From: Owenia fusiformis
Taxonomy: Eukaryota > Annelida > Polychaeta > Sabellida > Oweniidae
Assembly (NCBI GenBank): GCA_903813345.2
Contig: CAIIXF020000002.1
Location: forward strand, 17,992,813 to 18,056,812
Direction: 5' to 3'
DNA length: 64,000 nt
In this document: one piece after another, positions 1,256-63,725 of the stretch
Position numbering within the stretch: position 1 is the stretch's first letter
Layout: the number at the start of each line of letters is the position of its first letter
Position numbers and translations under genes: made by a program
Notes under the pieces: model-generated
Seen by the model: only the letters and a program-made list of their open reading frames with translations
What the model was told of the DNA's origin: nothing
The model's database searches: none

Positions 1256-2587
1256 GTTTTATATGAACATAACATTCCATCTTTAACAATATCATTTATA
1301 TAAATTACATCATTTTCAATCCAATGTTTAAAAAATAATGGTCTATTATACATTGTAATACTTTTATTATTCCATATTATAGCTTCATTGCAACTATATT
1401 CCTTGGTTTGTAACCACTTTTTTAAAATATTCTGATAAAAAGGACTAAGTTGATCTGCTCCACAAAAGTTTTCAGCAGTTATATTACTGTTAAAAACGCT
1501 CAAATTTTTACCTAATTTGTTGTACATATAATGTGGAACATATCTCCAATGACCTTGTCCATTTTCTTTTAGCTTTTTAATCCATTTAATACAAAAAGCA
1601 GTTTGCATATCCTTAATGTCTATCATGTTAAGACCACCATTCTGATGATTCTGCACAATAACACTTCTTTTGATCTTCTCTGGCACTTTTCCAATATCAG
1701 TTTCTTTAAATCGGCCTTTTGCCCACAAATACTTAAACATTAATTTGTTGATTCTATTTAACAGTATGTCAGGCAAAATGAAAGCTTGCATTAAATATGA
1801 AAATTGTGCTAAAATTAATGACTTAACAATCGTAACTTTGCCTAATAATGTTAAAATTCTCATATTCCATGTTTTAAATACATTTTCACACTTAATAAAC
1901 TTACTTTCAATATTTACATTATTGTTTATCACATCTGTACTAGGTGAAAAGGTGATGCCTAGAATTGTTACACAGTTATCTGGGATTATTTTCCAATTTA
2001 TATCACCTATTTTATATATTCTTGTTTTCCAGCTGCCTAACCATAATGCTTCAGTTTTTGATTTATTTAATTGTAAGTTTGAAATTGTGGCAAATTGTTC
2101 AAAAATATTCATTACTTTTTTCATAGAGGCTTCGTCTTTTAAGAACACAGTCGTGTCATCAGCAAACTGCACAATTTTTACATCTTCATCAAATGTTGGA
2201 ATGTGTATTCCTTTTACATCTTTTGTTTGCCTAATTTTACATGATAATAGTTCACATGCAATGATGAACAACAATGGAGATACACAGTAACCTTGCCGTA
2301 TTCCTCTCTCTAGCATGACCTCACCAAAAATCCAACCATTATTAGAAATACGACTTACACCATTTTTACATATTATAGACACCCATTTAACAAGAGAATC
2401 ACCAAAACCAAACATTTTCAAGGCTTCTAACATAAATGGCTTAGAAATTGTATCGTACGCTTTCGTAAAATCTATTGCTATAAGTATTCCTCCTATAAGA
2501 TTAGTATTAGTGAAATTAATAATATCATCTATAGCTCTGAGTACCAGAGCGGCACTTCTTCCTTTTATATACCCGCATTGATCTTTA
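1256..2587 (-). mobile_element. LINE fragment: L1/Tx1-type reverse transcriptase, truncated at both ends
   Basis: On the minus strand an open frame runs uninterrupted from about 2587 to 1256. It encodes the core of a non-LTR retrotransposon reverse transcriptase: QCGYIKGRSA, then IDFTKAYDTIS (a catalytic-Asp motif), GIRQGYCVSPLLF, the YxDD-type catalytic motif FADDT, then LNKSKTE and a Tx1-like C-terminal region (LGITFS, LWAKGRF). In the family this enzyme copies LINE RNA at a nicked target. The endonuclease domain, the start of the RT, the 3' end of the ORF, the 3' UTR and any poly(A) tail are all absent, so this is an internal fragment. No stop or frameshift is seen across about 440 codons, which suggests recent arrival. 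Against the duplicate block it sits in place of 515 bp of satellite (equivalent to 21956–22470). The clade call is from motif style only. Confidence 0.9.
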
Positions 2588-3333
2588 TGAATAAGCGATT
2601 TAAGACGAATTGGATATTATATATCTCCCTAAAAGACAAATCAATCGATACATCCCTCCTTTGGCAAACGTAAAAATATATACATAAACGTCTCACAATA
2701 TATCAAACTAGTCGCTGCTACCAGTGCGATGTACAGCTGGTCTGAAAATTGACATTCCGTACATAGCCAAAAGTAAATCAGACTTGTATGACAAATTAGA
2801 TACTCAATATCTCACGAATAGAATGACCAATCAACAAGTCCTCGGTAGGGCAAATGTAAAAATGTATCCTGAAACATTTCACTAAATAACAAATATCATA
2901 CTGCCACCAGCGTTACGTACGACTGGTCCGAAAATTGACATTTCCTCAAGAGCACAAACTGCAGCATAGATTTAAGACGAATAAGATATAAAATATATCA
3001 CGAACGGGAACATCATTCATTAAATCTATTGAAGAGCATACTCCAAAATATATACTTAAACCTCTCACAAAATTGCAAAGGACTGGCATGTACCAGTGTG
3101 ACGTACGACTGGTCGGAAAATTGACATTTCGTCAAGAGTGCAAATTGCATAAGCGACTTAAGACGAATTGGATATTATATATCCCCCTAACAGAGAAGTC
3201 AATCGATACATCCCTCCTTTGGCAAAAACGTAAAATATATATACATATACGTCTCACAATATATCAAACTAGTCACTGCTACCAGTGCGATGTACAGCTG
3301 GTCCGAAAATTGACATTCCGTACATAGCCCAAA
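2588..3333 (+). repeat. Satellite array segment 2
   Basis: The trimer satellite resumes at TGAATAAGCG and matches 22471–23216 of the duplicate block. Shared rare variants include GCGACTTAAG near 3153 and GGCAAAAACG at 3221 (23104 in the other copy). It ends in the monomer-B sequence …GCCCAAA, where the 9.4-kb element is inserted. Confidence 0.93.
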
Positions 3334-26740: not shown

Positions 26741-29409
26741 ATATACTTAAACGTCTCACAAAATTGCAAAGGACCGGCATGTACAAATGTGACGTGGGAC
26801 TGGTCGGAAAATTGACATTTCGTCAAGAGCGCAAATTGCATAAGCGATTTAAGACGAATTGGATATTATATATCCCCCTAACAGAGAAGTCAATCGATAC
26901 ATCCCTCCTTTGGCAAACGTAAAAATATATACATAAACGTCTCACAATATATCAAACTAGTCGCTGCTACAAGTGTGATGTACAGCTGGTCCGAAAATTG
27001 ACATTCCGTACATAGCCCAAAGTAAATCAGACTTGTATGACAAATTAGATAGTCAATATCTCACGAATAGAATGACCAATCAACAAGTCCTCGGTAGGGC
27101 AATTGTAAAAATGTATCCTGAAACATCTCACTAAATAACAAATATCATACTGCCACCAGCATTACGTACGACAGGTCCGAAAATTGACATTTCCACCAGA
27201 GCACAAACTGCATCATAGATTTAAGACGAATTAAATATAAAATATCTCACGAACGGGAACATCATTCATTAAATCCATTCAAGAGCATACTCCAAAATAT
27301 ATACTTAAACGTCTCACAAAATTACAAAGGACTGGCATGTACCAGTGTGACGTACGACTGGTCGGAAAATTGAAATTTCGTCAAGAGTGCAAATTGCATA
27401 AGCGATTTAAGACGAATTGGATATTATATATCCCCCTAAAAGAGAAGTCAATCGATACATCCCTCCTTTGCAAACGTAAAAATATATACATAAACGTCTC
27501 ACAATATATCAAACTAGTCGCTGCTTCAAGTGTGATGTACAGCTGGTCCGAAAATTGACATTCCGTACATAGCCCAAAGTAAATCAGACTTGTATGACAA
27601 ATTAGATACTCAATATCTCACGAATAGAATGACCAATCAACAAGTCCTCGGTAGGGCAAATGTAAAAATGTATCCTGAAACATCTCCCTAAATAACAAAT
27701 ATCACGTTGCCACCAGCGTTAAGTACGACTGGTCCGAAAATTGACATTTCCACCAGAGCACAAACTGCATCATAGATTTAAGAAGAATTAGATATAAAAT
27801 ATATCACGAACGGGAACATCATTCATTAAATCCATTCAAGAGCATACTCCAAAATATATACTTAAACGTCTCACAAAATTGTGAAGGACTGGCATGTACC
27901 AGTGTGACATACGACTGGTCGGAAAATTGACATTTCGTCAAGAGTGCAAATTGCATAAGCGATTTAAGACGAATTGGATATTATATATCCCCCTAACAGA
28001 GAAGTCAATCGATACATCCCTCCTTTGGCAAACGTCAAAATATACACATAAACTTCTCACAATATATCAAACTAGTCGCTGCTACCAGTGCGATGTACAG
28101 CTGGTCCGAAAATTGACATTCCGTACATAGCCCAAAGTGAATCAGACTTGTATGGCAAATTAGATACTCAATATCTCACAAATAGAATGACCAATTAACA
28201 AGTCCTCGGTAGGACAAATGTAAAAATGTATCCTGAAACATCTCAGTAAATAACAAATATCATTCTTCCATCAGCGTTACGTACGACTGGTCCGAAAATT
28301 GACATTTCCTCCAGAGCACAAACTGCATCATAGATTTAAGACGAATTAGATATAAAATATATCACGAACGGGAACATCATTCATTAAAATCATTGAAGAG
28401 CATACTCCAAAATATATACTTCAAATTCTCATAAAATTGGAAAGGACTGGCATGTACCAGTGTGACGTACGACTGGTCGGAAAATTGACATTTCGTCAAG
28501 AGCGCAAATTGCATAAGCAATTTAAAACAAATTGGATATTATATATCCTCCTAACAGAGAAGTCAATCGATACATCCCTCCTTTGACAAACGTTAAAATA
28601 TATACATAAACGTCTCACAATATATCAAACTAGTCGCTGCTACCAGTGCGATGTACAGCTGGTCCGAAAAATGACATTCCGTACAAAGCCCAAAGTAAAT
28701 CAGACTTGTATGACAAATTAGATACTCAATATCTCACGAATAGAATGACCAATCAACAAGTCCTCGGTAGGGCAAATGTAAAAATGTATCCTGAAACATC
28801 TCCCTAAATAACAAATATCACGTTGCCACCAGCGTTACGTACGACTGGTCCGAAAATTGACATTTCCACCAGAGCACAAACTGCATCATAGATTTAAGAC
28901 GAATTAGATATAAAATATATCACGAACGGGATCATCATTCATTAAATCCATTCAAGAGCATACTCCAAAATATATACTTAAACGTCTCACAAAATTGCAA
29001 AGGACTGACATGTACCAGTGTGACGTACGACTGGTCGGAAAATTGATATTTCCTCAAGAGCGCAAATTGCATAAGCGATTTCAGACGAATTGGATATTAT
29101 ATATCCCCCTAGAAGAGAAGTCAATCGATACATCCCTCCTTTTGCAAACGTAAAAATATATACATAAACGTCTCACATATATATCAAACTAGTCTCTGCT
29201 ACCAGTGCGATGTACAGCTGGTCCGAAAATTGACATTCCGTACATAGCTCAAGGTAAATCAGACTTGTATGACAAATAAAATACTCAATATCTCACGAAT
29301 AGTATGACCAATCAAAGAGTCCTCGGTAGGGCAAATGTAAAAATGTATCCTGAAACATCTCACTAAATAACAAATATCATGCTGCCACCAGCGTTACGTA
29401 CGACTGGTC
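26741..29409 (+). repeat. Satellite array segment 7
   Basis: About 4.8 trimer units. Homology to the first large block holds to about 28135 and then shifts. The last unit stops in monomer C at TACGACTGGTC, inside the conserved box, where the minisatellite begins. Confidence 0.92.
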
Positions 29410-31533
29410 TTTTAATTATCTTAAACCACGCCTTTTTTTCGATTTTCTCGTTTTTTATATTAAGACACGCCCCTTTATCGTTTTTTTCGCTTTTAATTAC
29501 CTTAAACCATGCCTCTTTTTCGATTTTTTCGTTTTTTACGCTAAGCCTCGCCCCCTTTATCGGGTTTTCGCTTTTAATTACCCTAAATGACGCCTCTTTT
29601 TCGATTTTATCGTTAATTTCGTTTTATATGCTAAGCCACGCCCCCTTTATCAGTTTTTCGCTTTAAATTACTTTAAACCACGCCTCTTTCGACTTTTTTT
29701 AACGCTAAGCCACGCCCCCTTTATCAGTTTTTCGCTTTACATTACCTTAAACCACGCCTCTTTCTCGATTTATTCGTTTTTTTTACTGTAAGCCACGCCC
29801 CTTTATCGTTTTTCCGCTTTTAATTACCTTAAACCACGCCTCTTTTTTGATTTATTCGTTTTTTACTGTAAGCCACGCCCCTTTATCGTTTTTTTCGCTT
29901 TTAATTACTTTAAACCAGGCCTCTTTTTCGATTTTTTCGATTTTTTTACTGTAAGCCACACCCCTTTATCGGTTTTTTTTGCTTTCAATTACCTTAAACC
30001 ACGCCTCTTTTTCGATTTATTCGTTTTTTTTACTGTAAGCCACGCCCCTTTATTGTTTTTTCGCTTTTAATTACCTTAAACCACGCCTCTTTTTCGAATT
30101 TTTTAACACTAAGCCCACCCCCTTTATCAGTTTTTCGCTTTACATTACCTTAAACCACGCCTCTTTTTCGAATTTTTTAACACTAAGCCCACCCCCTTTA
30201 TCAGTTTTTCGCTTTACATTACCTTAAACCACGCCTCTTTTTCGATTTTTTCGTTTTTGACGCTAAGCCACGCCCCTTTATCGTTTTTTCGCTTTTAATT
30301 ACCTGAAAACACTAAGCCCACCCCCTTTATCAGTTTTTCGCTTTACATTACCTTAAACCACGCCTCTTTTTCGATTTTTTCGTTTTTGACGCTAAGCCAC
30401 GCCCCTTTATCGTTTTTTTCGCTTTTAATTACCTGAAACCACGCCTCTTTTTCGATTTATTCGTTTTTTTACGGTAAGCCACGCCCCTTTATCGCTTTCC
30501 GCTTTTAATTACCTTAAACCACGCATCTTTTTCGATTTTCTCGTTAATTAAGTTAAGCCACGCCCCCTTTATCAGTTTTTCGCTTTAAATTACCTTAAAC
30601 AACGCCTCTTTTTTGATTTTTTCGTTTTTTTACTGTACGCCCCACCCCTTTATCGTTTTTTTTCGCTTTTTATTACCTTAAACCACGCCTCTTTTTCGAT
30701 TTATTCGTTTTTTTTTACTGTAAGCCACGCCCCTTTATCGTTTTTTTCGCTTTTAATTACTTTAAACCACGCCTCTTTTTCGATTTTTTTCGATTTTTTT
30801 ACTGTAAGCCACACCCCTTTATCGGTTTTTTTCGCTTTTAATTACTTTAAACCACGCCTCTTTTTCGATTTTTTCGTTTTTCACGCTAAGCCACGCCCCC
30901 TTTATCATTTTTTCGCTTTAAATTACCTTAAACCACGCCTCTTTTTCGATTTTTTCGTTTTTAAACTGTTAGCCACGCCCCTTTATCGTTTTTCGCTTTA
31001 AATTACCTTAAACCACGCCTCTTTTTCGATAAATTCGTTTTTTTACTGTAAGCCTTGCCCCTTTATCGTTTTTTTCGCTTTTAATTACTTTAAACCACGC
31101 CTCTTTTTAGATTTATTCGTTTTTTTACTGTAAGCCACGCCCCTCTATTGTTTTTTCGCTTTTAATTACTTTAAACCACGCTCTTTTCGATTTTTTCGTT
31201 TTTCATGCTAAGCTACGCCCCCTTTGTCATTTTTTCGCTTTAAATTACCTTAAACCACGCCTCTTTTTCGATTTTTTCGTTTTTTAACTGTAAGCCACGC
31301 CCCTTTATCGTTTTTTCGCTTTTAATTACCTTTAACCACGCCTCTTTTTCAATTTATTCGTTTTTTCACTGTAAGCCTTGCCCCTTTATCGTTTTTTCGC
31401 TTTTAATTACCTTAAACCACGCCTCTTTTTCGATTTTTTCGTTTTTTACGCTAATCCACGCCCCTTTTATCAGTTTTTCGCTTTAAATTACCTTAAACCA
31501 CGCCTCTTTTTCGATTTTTTCGAATATATTTTT
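29410..31533 (+). repeat. Minisatellite, ~81-bp unit rich in CCACGCCC
   Basis: About 26 copies of a unit reading roughly AATTACCTTAAACCACGCC, TCTTTTTCGATTTTTTCG, TTTTTACTGTAAGCCACGCC and CCTTTATCGTTTTTTCGCTTT. Repeat starts at 29751, 29833, 29914 and 29998 give spacings of 81–84 bp. The plus strand is strongly pyrimidine-rich. Larger duplicated blocks are visible inside (about 30090–30260 repeats itself, as does 30310–30420). It interrupts the satellite: the flank AAATATCATGCTGCCACC occurs on both sides, so about 40 bp of satellite is present twice. Confidence 0.93.
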
Positions 31534-56076: not shown

Positions 56077-56280
56077 TTACTCCTCTCCCTTGATCTTGTT
56101 GAATGCATCTACGATCATAGTCTGGAATTCTGCAGTATACACGGCCCAGTAGGCGCAGTTGAAGATGACAAAGAAGACAGGGAATATGATACGTGAGCAG
56201 TTGTCGACATATTGCGCTGTACAACCCCTTCCCTTGTTATAAGCCAATACTGAGCTACGGTCTCTTTTCTTGTTACCCTT
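56077..56280 (-). CDS. Receptor terminal exon: end of M3–M4 loop, M4, stop
   Basis: 204 bp. The acceptor TTGATTTTCAG precedes AAG GGT AAC. It encodes 67 residues ending KIKGEE and the stop. M4 is [20 protein letters not shown], followed by a 15-residue tail. Confidence 0.88.
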   Translation of the reverse strand, partial: KGNKKRDRSSVLAYNKGRGCTAQYVDNCSRIIFPVFFVIFNCAYWAVYTAEFQTMIVDAFNKIKGEE

Positions 56281-59200
56281 CTGAAAATCAAAGAAAAAGC
56301 ATTTATACCTCTGAAACACGAAACTAACTGAATGGAATCTCAGGTACATATGTATACGGGGTGTTATCTTACTAAATATAGGTACGTGTACATAGAAATG
56401 TATAATAACATTAAAAAATAAATTGTGATATCCATTGGCAAAATGAATAACCGGAGGATCGCCTCGATAAACTCCAGAAAACCAATATGCAGATGATATT
56501 GTGACGATATACTCCGGAAAACCCAATATGCGGAGGATATTTTGAGGAAATACTTCGCTTGTTGATTTCCCGCCAAATTGACTCTATTTGGCATGAAATT
56601 CATTTTACAATGATATTATACACTCCTTGTAAGTGTAGGACAATAAGAACATCCTATGATTTTTTCAGAATATCATTTTAATCTACTCGGTGATATTAAT
56701 ATATGTACTCGTTTGCTCTGCTCTCTCCTGCAGATATCAATATCACTTCGTAGTTAAAAACGATATTCCTCAAAATCATAGGATATCCTATAATTGCGTC
56801 ACTTATAATTGTGAAATTCTTCTTTCTCACCAACGGAGTCGTTGTTACATTTTTTTAATACGTTTGGAATAGCATGCTCAATATGGACATTCAGAATTAC
56901 CTTTCCAGTTTCTATATCTCTATGCCTTGCCTGCTTATCTTTTTCAACCGTGGACATAACATTGACAACGGCGTATTCTAACAGGGCAAGGAACACAAAT
57001 AACATGCATGCTGCCATCCACACGTCCATAGCTTTAGGGTAAGACACCCTTGGTACCTGCAACAGACATAGGGTAGGTTTTGCCAAGTACATGGGGCAAA
57101 AAGCATATTGGGTACCCGGGGTGGGTACCTATACCTCCTTCACGGAAATAAATATATATCAAAATATATTACATGTTTTGTTTTCAAATCTTCAGAGTTG
57201 ATAGATAATTAAATGATGTATCACTGGTAAGAAAATCGAAGGTATTGGTCTATAAAAAGCATCCGTGTAAAAAAGCGTCCATTACTTATTGATCACCCCT
57301 CGTATATATATCATATAGTTTGGTTTAAATCACATTGAACTTGATTGTTATCGATTTTGTAACTTCCCTGCCTGTTTTGTAACTTCCCTGCCGAAATTGT
57401 TTTTCAAACGCTTCCAAATGAGCTTACCGTTCGTGTGTTATTACCAGGATTTGCATTTTTTTCAATGAAAATTATGACTACAACCATACGTAAACAGAAT
57501 TTTGGTATAATTTCACAAAGAGAAAAAACGGCTATTTTCTAAAATACATAGGACTGTTACTTTATTTCAGGATACATTCGATCTATTTATCAGCCAATGA
57601 AATGAAAATATGAATTGAAACATTTTCTACATACCACTACAATGTATTCAAAAACTTTGTATTTGAAATTGGTATGCTTAGTGAAGATTGCTTGCAGCAA
57701 ACTAGAGATATTCCATTTCCTTTAAAAGATAAGTGAAGGCATATCCCTCGTCTACAACGACAATTCGTTGCCAAAGTGAGTTATTTTTAAAATATGATCA
57801 AATTCTATACTAAGAGGGCTGATCTGAAAAAGTCACTCCACCTGGTGGGAATCGAACCCACAACCCCCTAATTACATATCGAGTGCTCTGTAGTGAAACC
57901 AACTATTACATATCAAGATAAGTGTTGACATACCCCTTGTCTAGAGCCTGTTAGTTGTGTGGTCATAGTGAGGACTGTAGTGATACCGAGTGCTATTCTT
58001 GCAGGTACAGCCTCCTTATTAATCCAGAACGCCACCCAAGAGAGAATAACGATCAGCATCGACGGTATATAAGTCTGCAACAGGTAGTATCCTATCTGTC
58101 TCTTTAAATGAAACACTGCTCTCAACGAGGAAAAACTTCCTACAAATCAACATATTTGATGTGATAAAGGGTTTTAAATACATACTTGCCTTGTCATTGC
58201 GAATTACAAGTAGGCTAGTACCTGTAAATACATTTTATTCTTATATGGCGATTGTAGGAAAACGATGACCATTGAATATGAAAATAGCTATAGGCTATAC
58301 TTATTAACTATTTATTAAAGTACCAACAAACAGATTCTACATCTAATAACTACTTTTACATTTGGGGTAATGTGCATTAGATGTTCGTGGGTTACCCATT
58401 TTAATTTGGTAATCGTTTATCATAATGCTATTTATTATTTTATATCTCAGTGTTTGGTAGGGGCATGGCATTATCTCTAGAAATAAAAAATGAGAGCATT
58501 TGCTAAGAAACTTTCTGGTCTGGCCTCGTATATTAGGTACAGTTTTCAGGAATTGACGCATTTTTGTTATACTACACGATATGCCAATGCATAACGCAAT
58601 GACCAATATCATATTGTATATCATCAGCATATTACGCATGCTGATAAAAAATTAAGAATAACTTTATTGAAGCATGCTTTGATAAATTAAACTCATTAAC
58701 AAAGAAGGATCAAATAGATAAATGGTTAATCTGACATTGCTACGTCCACATGCAGTGCAGCAGCCTGGAAAATTGAACAGAACTCATAGTAAAATGAGTA
58801 CATTCGTAGGAAATACACTTCTCACCATAGGTTTGGTAAGCGCAAGGCTGGATCACTGTTCAAAACCAGTGAGCAGGGTGTTCCAAAAGTAACAGGACAT
58901 GTGCTGGCATTTTGTTAAAATCAATCTGCACCAAATGCCTTCAAAACTTTGCATAATGTACTTTCAGGTATTGCAACTCAATCTGTAAAGTTTCTTAAAA
59001 AATATATAATTTTTAGCGATTAAAGAAAATAATAAAAGTCATTTGCCGAACTATCGTAATCGAGGAACAAATTGAGACACTGATATGCTATCAAATGAAA
59101 ACTTCCCAGTTGTCAAACTTATAGAGGGGAGTGTACATGAGCAGTAAAAGACCTTTGCATGCATCGCATAACTATCAGAAAATAAGAATATAAAGCCATG

Positions 59201-62200
59201 CAAAACATTAATAGCAGAGGAGTGCATATTTGTTTACTTGTTTTGAATGCCACTATTGAGGAAATCGACAAAGTGGCACAAGATCTGTGTGGATGCGTCG
59301 TCGTAACTACTTGTCCACAGTGAATCACGAGTAGTATATTACAAATTTTAATTGATCGCAATAATTTTGCATACAGCTCACTAAGATTTCATTTTTACAT
59401 AACAGTATATCTTGGACCACTGAACAAAATCATGAATAGTATACTATATGTATTATTTTACAATCATCCTAATTGTTATTCGGCAATGTCACAAGGACAC
59501 AATGATGCCTCGCATAATGCTTCAAGTTTCATAAATCATTTATCTTGAACGATATATCTGAGAGAACGATATTTTCGTGAAGAAAAATGACACACAACAG
59601 GAATCACTTGGATCATCAGCAAACACTTATTAACCAATTTGCAATATTACATTTGCAATTTTTAAATCATACGATTGCTACAAACGGAGATGCATCCATC
59701 ATATATAGTACCAATATTAAAATATGTTTGTATTGGTGCAGCATTAACTACACAAAACTACGGTGGCAATGACAACATACTCATTCAGGTTTCCATGGCG
59801 ACAAGCTACCTGTTACGAAAACAGCCTTATCGGTATATGTGTCTGGTAGATGATAGAATATAAAGCTTGGCATTTGTAGGGTGGGGCTAAATTCTATAGG
59901 ATCAACGTCCGACCACACTAATCTGATATCATCCTCATCATAGACATCTACAAAAAGGGATTTAAGGATCATCACTTCTTGTGATCACGATTTATGGTGT
60001 GGCGATGGGTGCCAAATAAAAATGTACTAAATCAGTCAACATTTTTGATTTATACATTGTGAAAATGGCATGGGCTGTAGGTAGAAACGTTTCCAAACTT
60101 TCAAAAAATCCATTTTCGTTATAAGCATTGCTATCTACATCCTCTGACATCACGAGCCTGGTAAATACACCCTGTCCTGTTGGAAAAGATGGCAAACTTG
60201 TAATAATCATACCATTGAATGTAGTATAATGTAGTAGTGATAGCCTTACCATTGAATCATTTACGAGTTTTATATGATAGTCATACCCAATGCCATATGA
60301 TAGAATAATATCACATGATTGTTATACCATTGGATACGGTGGTCATCAATGAGTTTATATCGTATGTAATCAGATGAATAACTGCCATCGAAAGTCATAC
60401 CATTCAATATAGTACCAATCGGATGTATAAGTTACAGTCGTCCTAATATGAACTAGTCACTAGCATAAACAAACATATTAATAGAAAAAGACATGTTATC
60501 ATATATTAGAGGATCACAACAACGCATAGTGAACAGGTAAGAATAATGTTACAGAACAGTATAGGATGACAAGAGGTATCCAATATTTTTCATGATGCTT
60601 ATAGCATTGTGTTTTGACCATATCAAACCCCTTTCGAATTCCCATAGGAGCAAAATTGGGTTCCCTTTAGCTCGATATTTTTGCATAAAGAGATGTTAAA
60701 CAGGTTCATCCATCTACTCGCAATTTATAAGATACAGACTTCTACGTTTACGATATCAATTTTATGATTCAACTTGTAAGTAGTCCAAGATATTATATTT
60801 TGTGGTACATTTCCTAAATTTAAATTGTTGTTTTCAAAAATGTATCCAACCCTTCAGGATTTCAAATGAGCCAAACCTTTATCAGATTTATAGTCATATT
60901 GGAGAACCTCTCATATTCACTAAAGTCATGCTTCAGGGTGGCATGAAATTATAACTGTTTCTTGTAGGTTGAAACATCCAAAGCTGAAAGTTAAAATTAT
61001 TAATAAAATGGAAGTTAATTACATAGATGGTAGACACTACACAATAGTATTCGATTCCAGAGTTCATACGAGAGGTAAATCATATACAATCACTCTAACG
61101 CCCGAAATGACGTGACGTAATTTGAAGCCAGTTTTACTAATAGTGTGATAGATTGTATATACATCTCGTAGAAACCTTCTCAGATTAAACAAAGCTTTTC
61201 TCTCCAGTACCTGTCCTCGAGTAGCTTCGATTTCTACTCGATGCTTTTACATCATCTATTTTGAATTGTGCCAAGCCTACAGTACTTGGGATTTCGACTC
61301 CCTGATTCTTAAGGCTATGGTCTGGTTGCCATTGCAATTCAATGTCGTCGGACTCATAGACAACTAGAAGTCAGTAAATTATTTGTTACAAATTTAGGAT
61401 TTCATTTAGTTTATAATTTATTTTATTTATTTATTTACAGTGGTCAGTCTTACATTTCAATAAGATATAAAAAATAACAATTTTACCCAGCCAACCTTGG
61501 GCTTACATGTATTAACAACTGTTAACAATAGAACATTCAAAATTAATACAGAGGTCTACGAAATGGTGTAACGAATACACTGAACTAATTGATCAGAAAC
61601 CATAATAGTTGAAGGCTTAGGGGGATAAAAATGTTTATGAAAATATGGCAGTGCAGTTAACCTTCAATTTCTTTAGAGAAATTGTTAACATGCTATACTA
61701 ATGTCGTCTTTCGTCCTAAAATACATATTCATTTTAAAAAATTGAATAAACATTTCATTTAGAAATTACTTAGTTTCATACTGAAGTTTATGCTGCCATC
61801 TTTTGACAGAAATTATTTCTATATGATACTTGATATATAGTATGATTTGTGTAGGGTATAGCAGTATAGTTCAGTTGCGTGTAATTGACATATCATTACT
61901 TTGCCACATGTCTATGTGCTGAGCCCTTATTCAACCCAGTAACACCTCAGTCACATTTCCCACGGCCGCCGTGCGGTCTATCATTTCTTCGGCCAGTAGC
62001 TTTTCTACGCTCACCGTAGAATTTCTGCGCTCTCATACTTTTGCAGTCACATTTCCCACGGCAGCCGCACGGTGAATTTTAAATTGCTATTGATAAATAA
62101 TATTTTTTTTCATTTTATTTACATCAGGACAATTTATAAATGTTATTCGATAGTGCTAGGATGTAATATCAAATGAAAAGTGATCGTGAAACATTGACAG

Positions 62201-63725
62201 ATAATGATTCAATCTTGTTGAACCAGTTGATTTCTACGGGGACCTCAGAAATGAACAAATATTATAACTCCGAGTCATAATTTTACGGCGACCCTCTGGC
62301 CTGTAAAAAACTGGATACGCCGTACGGAGACCACAAGGCGAGCGTAGTTTTTCTACGCTCGCCGCAAAAATTCATTGATTTAATTGATCTGCGGTCGACG
62401 CACGGCCTCCGTACCGCAAATGTGACTGGGGTGTTAGTAAATAGAATTATGGAAAACAGATCTAAATGCTCTGATTTTGCTATGACGTGTTGTATCTTTT
62501 GATTATTTTGTATGCTGAAATATGTTATTGTATAAAATGGCTTAAAATGGATAAACGATGGAAACAAAGATAATGTAACTTACAGCTTTCAATGTTCAAG
62601 GCACATTCCTGGGTATCCAGTGGAAAGTCTGTGAGGAGCATAGGGCAGGACAGGACTAAAGTCAACCTGAAATATGTGAATGTATGTACAGTTGATATAT
62701 ACGTATGTCAAGCGTTTTTCAAATAATATAATTCATTTCATCATGATCACTAACAAGTTTTAATACTTTTATGATATACTGGAAATGATTACTCAAAATC
62801 CAGACTAGATATAATTCATTCCAGACGCACAGCAACACGAGTCTTGGAGCCTGTTATTATGTAACATTTTGTATAACATTATGACATAAATTGAACTGAA
62901 GGCCGGAGACCTGTACACTAATTAAATTGATTTTAACTTCCAAATATGTATGAGACACCAACTTTTGAAGTTCAACTTTGACAAATAGAGTAATTCATTA
63001 TACCCGGTGATTCTAGCTTTAGTGAAATCTGTATATTCGCTTTGGAGCACAGTGGAATTGTTTGGAAAACAAGATGACTACGGGCCCGGGTGAGATTTTT
63101 TCGTCAGAATTCTATACATTTTTAATCAATAGGATATAGATCAAATATCCACAATATTATGTACATGCGTAAGGATGTCCTGCATCTGATCTTCTAAGCA
63201 TTGGATAAGGCAGTTGCAGGTCATGCTTTGGAGAGTTTACAGCAATAAGGAGTGTAAGCTTGCATACAAAATCGAAACGCCAACCTATAAGTATGACCAT
63301 TCGCTCATACAAATGCATCGCTTAAATATCTTACGTTCGCGTTTAGGTTGTGAAAAACAGTGGTAGCTTAAGCTCTCTATTAGCAAAGAAAAACCACCTA
63401 TACATGTACCTTGGTTTAGTAAGTCATACGAAATACGTTATCAGTGATACCGATCGTCCAAAATAATCCAGTTGGGTGTATTATTCGTAGGCTATATCTA
63501 CCTGATGCTATAGGTGACAGTCCCATTGGGGGTTACCCTAATCAGCTTATTGGGAATGATCATTGTATGAAGCTCGCCCTTCTTCTCGTTTGGGAAATAA
63601 AGTGGCGGGGTCCAGATATTCTTGATGCTTTCAGATGTTAATGTTATATAGCGCTGTTTTCCACCCTCATATTGTAGGCGTGGGTCATTCCATTCTTGCC
63701 TCAAGAAAAAATCCAGCGAGTAATC
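56077..63725 (-). CDS. Cys-loop ligand-gated anion channel subunit, glycine-receptor-like (5' exons outside window)
   Basis: A split minus-strand gene; the model joins 63502–63725, 62584–62666, then 61211–61363 or 59810–59947, then 57934–58139, 56901–57056 and 56077–56280. All junctions use AG/GT and phases agree. Such subunits form pentameric neurotransmitter-gated channels in the plasma membrane. Seen in order: RQEWNDPR and NGTVTYSIR in the extracellular domain, the 13-residue Cys loop [16 protein letters not shown]1 ([17 protein letters not shown]), the PAR motif typical of anion channels, M2 ([11 protein letters not shown]), M3 ([17 protein letters not shown]) and M4 ([17 protein letters not shown]). 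Closest in wording to glycine receptors, but the two loop C cysteines of those proteins are replaced. The M3–M4 loop is only about 45–50 residues in this model; a missed exon there is possible. Signal peptide and N-terminal helix exons are not in the window. The ligand cannot be named. Confidence 0.9.
56281..56900. other. Receptor intron between M3 and M4 exons
   Basis: 620 bp. It contains a fold-back pair (CATCCTATGATTTTTTCAGAATATC at about 56652 and GATATTCCTCAAAATCATAGGAT at about 56762) and a local repeat GATATTGTGACGATATACTCC(G/A)GAAAAC near 56450–56530. An extra loop exon here is possible but none is evident. Confidence 0.55.
56901..57056 (-). CDS. Receptor M3 exon
   Basis: 156 bp, phase 0 at both ends. 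Acceptor …TGTTGCAG, donor AAG|GTAATT. It encodes [17 protein letters not shown] and M3, then a basic start of the loop ([15 protein letters not shown]). A further open stretch and another GT (GTGAGA) lie downstream, but that donor would put the last exon out of frame. Confidence 0.85.
57830..57905 (-). repeat. tRNA-derived relic in a receptor intron
   Basis: On the minus strand GGTTTCACTACAGAGCACTC resembles a D-arm/box A region. GTGGGTTCGATTCCCACC is a perfect T-arm with box B, followed by AGGTGGAGTGAC. The acceptor stem is not convincing, so it is probably a SINE head or tRNA pseudogene. Confidence 0.55.
57934..58139 (-). CDS. Receptor M1–M2 exon
   Basis: 206 bp. Acceptor TTGATTTGTAG, donor GGG|GTATGT. 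It encodes [19 protein letters not shown]1, the short loop with EAVPAR, M2 and TGSRQG. The PAR triplet before M2 is the anion-selectivity signature. M2 begins [14 protein letters not shown], as in inhibitory receptors. Confidence 0.92.
58140..59809. other. Receptor intron
   Basis: About 1670 bp of AT-rich intron. A lone mariner-like terminus (CAGGGTGTTCCAAAAGTAAC) is at 58873. ORFs of 80–98 codons show no domain. Confidence 0.55.
59810..59947 (-). CDS. Receptor beta8–beta9/loop C exon, version b (138 bp)
   Basis: Acceptor CTTTTTGTAG, donor ACAG|GTAGC. Its first two bases (AT) and last base (G) fit the Cys-loop exon (…AGC T) and the M1–M2 exon. Spliced, it reads [15 protein letters not shown], then a central part with [12 protein letters not shown], then VFVT-G. 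It lacks the cysteine of the glycine-receptor loop C. 138 bp matches the usual size of this exon in the family. Confidence 0.85.
59948..61210. other. Intron between the two alternative exons
   Basis: 1263 bp, AT-rich. An 86-codon minus-strand ORF (59992–60252) contains no receptor motif. No third exon version was found. Confidence 0.55.
61211..61363 (-). CDS. Receptor beta8–beta9/loop C exon, version a (153 bp)
   Basis: Acceptor TGACTTCTAG, donor ACAG|GTACTG. It starts TT and ends G, the same phases as version b. Spliced, it reads [15 protein letters not shown], then [16 protein letters not shown], then SYSRT-G. The W and the acidic start are shared with version b; most of the rest differs. 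Open throughout, without stops. Confidence 0.85.
61364..61940. other. Receptor intron, left part
   Basis: AT-rich, with a short TTTA-rich run at about 61421–61438. No gene or repeat beyond that. Confidence 0.5.
61941..62435. mobile_element. 495-bp MITE in a receptor intron
   Basis: The ends AACACCTCAGTCACATTT and AAATGTGACTGGGGTGTT are near-perfect inverted repeats, with possible AGT duplications on both sides. It carries subterminal GCCGCCGTGCGG/CACGGCCTCCGT and an internal GCGAGCGTAG/CTACGCTCGC hairpin. The left end (CAGTCACATTTCCCACGGC) is repeated about 100 bp in. The right third is also found at 45521–45688. Confidence 0.8.
62584..62666 (-). CDS. Receptor Cys-loop exon
   Basis: 83 bp, the usual size of this exon in the family. 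Acceptor CATATTTCAG, donor AGCT|GTAAGT. It encodes LTLVLSC, the Cys loop and ALNIES. The first base completes the Arg of YSIR from the previous exon; the last base (T) completes F or Y, depending on the next exon. Confidence 0.92.
62667..63501. other. Receptor intron
   Basis: 835 bp, AT-rich; no repeat or RNA recognised. Confidence 0.5.
63502..63725 (-). CDS. Receptor beta-sandwich exon (loops D, A, E region)
   Basis: 224 bp, the usual size of this exon. Acceptor ATTATCAG, donor ATCAG|GTAGAT. It encodes [52 protein letters not shown] gives a possible N-glycosylation site. RQEWNDPRL and FPNEK are close to glycine-receptor wording. Confidence 0.92.

Follow-up and report, generated by a model that had tools for sequence, protein, structure and literature searches.

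Tandem, phase-matched copies of the loop F/C exon in a glycine-receptor-like gene of Owenia fusiformis

The window analysed here, a stretch of 64 kb (64,000 nucleotides) of Owenia fusiformis DNA, carries at its right end and on the minus strand a receptor gene in which one exon is present in two tandem copies. We confirmed that these copies, A and B, are adjacent homologous exons, phase-matched and intact. Judged by its translation, the gene encodes a subunit of a glycine-receptor-like pentameric channel that probably conducts chloride. We consider it likely that each transcript takes up either A or B and that each exon provides the subunit with a different ligand pocket and, probably, a different pharmacology. 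Both copies are found on both alleles, and similar arrangements recur at paralogous loci.

Exons A and B and their surroundings

The coordinates of A and B in the original prediction were confirmed on the minus strand (Table 1). As had been claimed, both exons show GT-AG splice sites, with AG before and GT after, contain no stop codon and share the same phase, with 2 bases in and 1 base out. Each of them is in frame with the same Cys-loop exon, ending at 62584, and the same M1-M2 exon, starting at 58139. The strong difference between the two peptides noted at that time was also found, with 11 of 45 aligned residues being identical (24%), and the duplicated exon encodes the last part of loop B, loop F and the larger part of loop C. 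It starts inside the codon after the IES of the Cys-loop exon; its end falls within the codon for Gly in GSF, the counterpart of GKF in the GlyR alignment.

Table 1. Predicted exons of the receptor gene in the window, and loci of the receptor family at which the loop F/C exon is duplicated or triplicated.
Feature	Position	Strand	Length	Remarks
Upstream constitutive exon	63502..63725	-	224 bp	beta2-beta6 region, ending TVTYSI; Pfam LBD match
Constitutive Cys-loop exon	62584..62666	-	83 bp	
Putative alternative exon A	61211..61363	-	153 bp	beta8-beta9, loops F and C; exceeds B by 5 residues
Putative alternative exon B	59810..59947	-	138 bp	beta8-beta9, loops F and C
Constitutive M1-M2 exon	57934..58139	-	206 bp	PAR motif before M2
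Constitutive M3 exon	56901..57056	-	156 bp	
Last exon	56077..56280	-	204 bp incl. stop	M4 and stop codon; acceptor picked by eye
Window locus				2 loop F/C exon copies
Paralogous locus	C2:23333600-23340300			2 loop F/C exon copies
Paralogous locus	C1:10962200-10968950			2 loop F/C exon copies and two tandem Cys-loop exons, single M1-M2 exon
Paralogous locus	C1:590k-606k			3 loop F/C exon copies
Paralogous locus	C1:616k-640k			2 loop F/C exon copies and a weak partial match (12 bits)
Paralogous locus	C1:4690k-4700k (C1:4690400-4700500)			2 loop F/C exon copies, each followed by its own M1-M2 exon

For this receptor family, a single upstream exon, a single Cys-loop exon and a single M1-M2 exon were found in the window together with 10 kb upstream of it. 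Pattern scans upstream of 63725, including the 10 kb outside the window, revealed no exon that would convincingly encode the signal peptide or the beta1-beta2 region. The lengths of A and B are both multiples of 3. In a test covering five exons, splicing of A alone resulted in an open frame of 274 residues and splicing of B alone in one of 269 residues, and with both exons spliced in, 320 residues without a stop were obtained. If both exons are skipped, a TGA arises where the Cys-loop exon meets the M1-M2 exon. A and B are separated by an intron of 1,263 nt in the window and 1,572 nt on the other allele.

When a simple splice-and-motif grammar was run over the 8.8 kb of the gene, A and B were the only hits. 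With an exon profile built from 18 exon peptides of the paralogous loci, A and B being left out, scores of 22.2 bits for A and 24.4 bits for B were obtained. Among 1,469 splice-compatible segments from 16 stretches and both strands, all those listed above 6 bits overlap copies of the loop F/C exon, and no antisense segment is listed above this value. The best score in the shuffle control (200 dinucleotide shuffles of three introns) was 5.8 bits among 1,451 segments. Direct single-sequence searches did not link A and B to each other. Up to an E-value of 10, the A peptide retrieved from the genome only A itself and its allele; the B peptide retrieved itself, its allele and one paralog match of 17.9 bits. 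Taken alone, the A and B peptides (45-50 residues) match no Pfam family.

Contig C124 represents an allelic copy of the locus, with main blocks being 95-99.8% identical and smaller blocks lower, and carries A and B in the same order as the window. B is identical over its 138 bp, A exhibits one nonsynonymous change from Ala to Val, and the four changes in the M1-M2 exon leave the peptide unaltered. On C124 the intron separating the two exons has 309 additional nt, mostly due to one insertion near window positions 60276-60500. Only 1 allelic difference falls in the 291 bp of A and B, compared to 39 in the intron that follows A and 52 in the one that follows B. As a proof of constraint on the two exons this comparison was dropped, since the divergence is patchy and the stretches adjoining A and B are also low in differences; it therefore serves only to prove that both exons are present on both alleles.

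Identity of the encoded receptor

The glycine-receptor-like character proposed for the gene was substantiated by match scores against solved structures, on which our assignment is based. The best solved relative is GlyR alpha-3, with E-values of 1.4e-84 for the A isoform and 1.2e-86 for the B isoform. GlyR alpha chains occupy the first 17 of the best 60 rows for both isoforms (312 and 309 PDB matches), and the best GABA-A or GluCl chain among these best 60 lies 48-51 bits under the top match. GlyR beta chains score below GABA-A beta chains among the matches listed. Pfam ligand-binding and transmembrane domains are matched in the spliced protein. On the ligand-binding domain (LBD) the A isoform reaches 118.2 bits and thus a higher score than the B isoform with 109.3 bits, the reverse of the order in the PDB search.

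With 13 residues between the cysteines of the Cys-loop and AVPARIAL, the PAR motif before M2, the translation resembles the alpha chains of vertebrate glycine receptors in Cys-loop spacing and PAR motif as well as in the PDB E-values of 1e-84 to 1e-86. The lengths of the 224-, 83- and 138-bp exons presumably also correspond to the exon layout of GLRA genes. In contrast to GlyR alpha, which exhibits a second disulfide in loop C, no Cys occurs in A or B, and a Ser is located at the partner place in the M1-M2 exon. Copies of the exon with a cysteine in loop C occur at 9 of the 14 family loci.

Over the length of the exon, the alignment to GlyR alpha-3 is gapless for B, and A has five extra residues. 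At the place of GlyR Tyr202, the alignment gives Phe for B and Ser with an adjacent Tyr for A. The Thr before Gly is kept in both exons.

Paralogous loci and duplication history

A genome search with the M1-M2 peptide gave 19 matches, comprising the window, its allele, 14 matches in 13 other loci and 3 weak ones on C7. We count 14 family loci including the window, with the C7 matches and one locus, of which the piece analysed contains only an upstream exon, being left out. At 6 of these 14 loci, again including the window, the loop F/C exon occurs in 2-3 copies. Five loci besides the window thus have a comparable arrangement, which could not be recognised from the window by itself. At the remaining 8 of the 14 loci the exon is single, and in one case it is continuous with the Cys-loop exon. 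A genome-wide search with five exon peptides, which reaches close relatives only, revealed nothing beyond the family loci except one match bearing a stop.

The multi-copy loci are not built uniformly. At C1:10962200-10968950, two Cys-loop exons and two loop F/C exons give four possible combinations. At C1:4690400-4700500, one Cys-loop exon is followed by two modules of a loop F/C exon and an M1-M2 exon, of which the second apparently contains an intron inside M2 and the first does not. Since each copy has its own M1-M2 exon, the duplicated unit is larger there; the locus could comprise alternative 3' halves of one gene or, alternatively, a truncated tandem gene. At C1:616k about 20 kb lie between the Cys-loop exon and the copies, and one gene was assumed. 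The weak partial match of 12 bits at this locus may be a decayed copy, and one copy at C1:590k, in which Phe replaces a nearly invariant Trp, may be decaying.

Neur_chan_LBD has at least 156 matches genome-wide. Three of them, nearly full-length and lying in open frames of 474-498 codons, are located together with a fourth bearing one TAG on the small contig C155. This tally represents a large expansion of Cys-loop receptors in the genome. In the same genome COX1 was not found, Eryth_link_C, a domain of annelid haemoglobin linkers, has 3 matches above the cut-off, and 38 forkhead matches are distributed over nine contigs (C1, C3, C4, C5, C6, C8, C9, C10, C11), with closely spaced groups of four on C8, three on C10 and two on C3. 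For O. fusiformis, Fox genes on nine chromosomes and foxQ2 tandems on two of them have been described (PMC9977687, PMC9539403), although the contig numbers differ from the published chromosome numbers.

A tree calculated from 20 exon copies unites the copies of the four C1 genes (SH-aLRT 99, bootstrap 95), and the gene bodies of these genes are likewise grouped in one clade (100/100). The C1 duplications are, according to this support, well separated from that in the window. The two C2:23.33 Mb copies pair with values of 74/81, and A and B appear as nearest relatives with weak support (73/33; 73.3 for SH-aLRT). Probably three lineages, namely the window gene, C2:23.33 Mb and the four-gene C1 clade, duplicated the exon separately, with the origin in the window being the least certain.

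When copies from one and the same locus are compared at the four C1 loci, the synonymous sites are almost saturated with differences and the nonsynonymous sites differ less; for C1:10962200, 22.8 of 24.2 synonymous sites differ versus 22.2 of 107.8 nonsynonymous sites. According to this pattern both copies have been retained as protein, as a long-unused copy would look different. For A and B, 53.2 of 108 nonsynonymous and 20.8 of 27.0 synonymous sites differ, which is weak evidence for constraint because the nonsynonymous share is high and the alignment favours matches.

Proposed splicing of A and B and relation to known receptors

According to the reading we favour, A and B would derive from one ancestral exon by tandem copying, and each transcript would contain one of them, joined to the Cys-loop exon on one side and to the M1-M2 exon on the other. 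With either exon, a full subunit with common pore and scaffold would result, while the last part of loop B, loop F (beta8-beta9) and loop C would differ. The altered loops would probably confer a different agonist potency or respond to a different agonist. Transcription of both exons, their exclusivity and the altered pharmacology are what we infer from the structure of the gene. In a study on the glycine receptor, changes at one residue of the beta8-beta9 loop are reported to lower the potency of glycine (PMC5640878).

Exclusive use is not enforced by the reading frame, since A and B together are in frame, and the intron between them is on both alleles too long for simple steric exclusion. 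As a mechanism based on RNA pairing, a 25-nt, 80% complementary pair bracketing B (59397-59421 / 60779-60803) was considered and dropped: neither arm is exact on the other allele, and inverted 10-, 11- and 12-mers between the introns flanking B occur at shuffle level, in numbers of 6, 2 and 0 compared to shuffle means of 6.0, 1.6 and 0.5. With frame and intron length being non-enforcing and no RNA-pairing signal between these introns, a protein regulator presumably has to be invoked. A weak donor was rejected as a mark of alternative exons. G at donor position +5 is absent in A and B and, counting these, in 9 of 13 exons of duplicated loci; it is also absent in 4 of 7 single-copy exons, so that its absence does not separate the two groups. 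All 14 Cys-loop donors looked at carry the +5 G.

One of the two exons could be a relic, with only the other one being spliced and the open frame kept by luck or due to recent disuse. The five extra residues of A and its Ser at the GlyR Tyr202 place would fit such a fate, as would the fact that the sole allelic change in A and B is nonsynonymous and located in A, and the possibly decayed copy at C1:616k. However, although A and B share only 24% identity, their splice sites, phase, reading frame and family signature are preserved, and this on two alleles; B aligns gapless with GlyR alpha-3 whereas the A isoform is the higher one on the Pfam LBD. As B performs better in the PDB search and A on the Pfam LBD, neither exon looks clearly dead, and we regard a relic as unlikely.

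Joint inclusion of A and B would yield a subunit in which the beta8-beta9 segment occurs twice. It would be open to translation as both are in frame without a stop, but a compact beta sandwich would have to accommodate 46-51 additional residues, and 8 of the 14 family loci have a single copy of the exon; we judge it very improbable. Even less credit is given to A and B belonging to two overlapping or nested genes. The second M1-M2 exon behind the second copy at the paralogous C1:4690k provides a parallel for this, yet in the window and the 10 kb upstream the upstream exon, the Cys-loop exon and the M1-M2 exon were each found just once, which makes two overlapping genes unlikely and agrees with the single gene originally proposed. 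An assembly artefact might be suspected as the assembly holds an unpurged allelic contig of the locus; with A and B being only 24% identical and both alleles carrying both exons in the same order, such an origin is hardly conceivable. Splicing of A and B one at a time is the reading we retain.

The supposed lack of precedent for such exons has to be qualified, as exon 6 of RDL varies loops C and F (PMC4019635) and GLRA2 has exons 3A and 3B (PMC3484359). In Drosophila RDL, exon 6 is used as c or d variant, leading to diversity in loops C and F (PMC4019635), and RDL of Tribolium, a GABA-gated chloride channel, also has two exon 6 variants, 6a and 6b (PMC2064938). The likeness consists in the use of one of two variants and in the same part of the protein as in A and B. 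In contrast, RDL is a GABA receptor, and the window gene is closest to GlyR alpha chains among solved structures. An assignment of the window gene to RDL is not obtained, as GlyR alpha chains outscore every GABA receptor chain among the matches listed. Furthermore, A and B are unequal in length (153 and 138 bp) and share only 24% identity.

Exons 3A and 3B of vertebrate GLRA2 are, similar to the proposed use of A and B, alternative exons in a glycine receptor gene (PMC3484359), but they are located at another position, in the N-terminal extracellular part, and the resulting proteins differ by two residues. Alternative exons are also described for the insect nAChR subunits alpha4 (exon 4) and alpha6 (exons 3 and 8) and for GluCl (exon 3) (PMC2064938, PMC9219234), and tick RDL possesses a triplicated exon covering a stretch of 154 residues (PMC9219234). 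These cases share with the window gene the occurrence of alternative exons, with duplication most likely or shown, in Cys-loop receptor genes. The insect nAChR and GluCl exons belong, however, to other subfamilies and encode other protein parts than A and B, and tick RDL is a member of another subfamily. Among open-licence papers, looked through by title and start of the abstract, none on duplicated loop F/C exons in glycine-receptor-like genes was found, which is weak evidence of absence. The kind of arrangement is thus already known; what is new is the subfamily, the extent to which the copies have diverged (24% identity) and the repeated occurrence at paralogous loci.

Provided that A and B are both in use, one gene would give rise to two channels with a common pore and a differing ligand pocket, in which effects of the pocket are isolated. 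The recurrence would suggest that evolution revisited the loop F/C exon, in GlyR-like genes as in insect RDL, and the 13 natural cassettes at six loci would allow a comparison of ligand recognition. More tentatively, and with somewhat less than even confidence, we suggest that the exon for loops B, F and C is a swappable cassette across the GlyR-like subfamily, which was copied apparently independently in three lineages, in one gene together with two Cys-loop exons and in another with a second M1-M2 exon. The receptors would then be diversified by splicing in addition to gene number, possibly for several ligands including others than glycine.

Apart from the receptor gene, the window contains several blocks of long arrays in which a 186-bp unit is tandemly repeated, at 12852-41628 and also at 43-1211 and 2587-3321 (63-68% matches), and a 42/81/162-bp array at 29409-31522. 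An open frame of 463 codons on the minus strand (1228-2616) resembles, by eye, a reverse transcriptase at its start. On the plus strand, an open frame of 452 codons at 48691-50046 matches a glycosyl transferase family 11 domain with an E-value of 4.8e-27.
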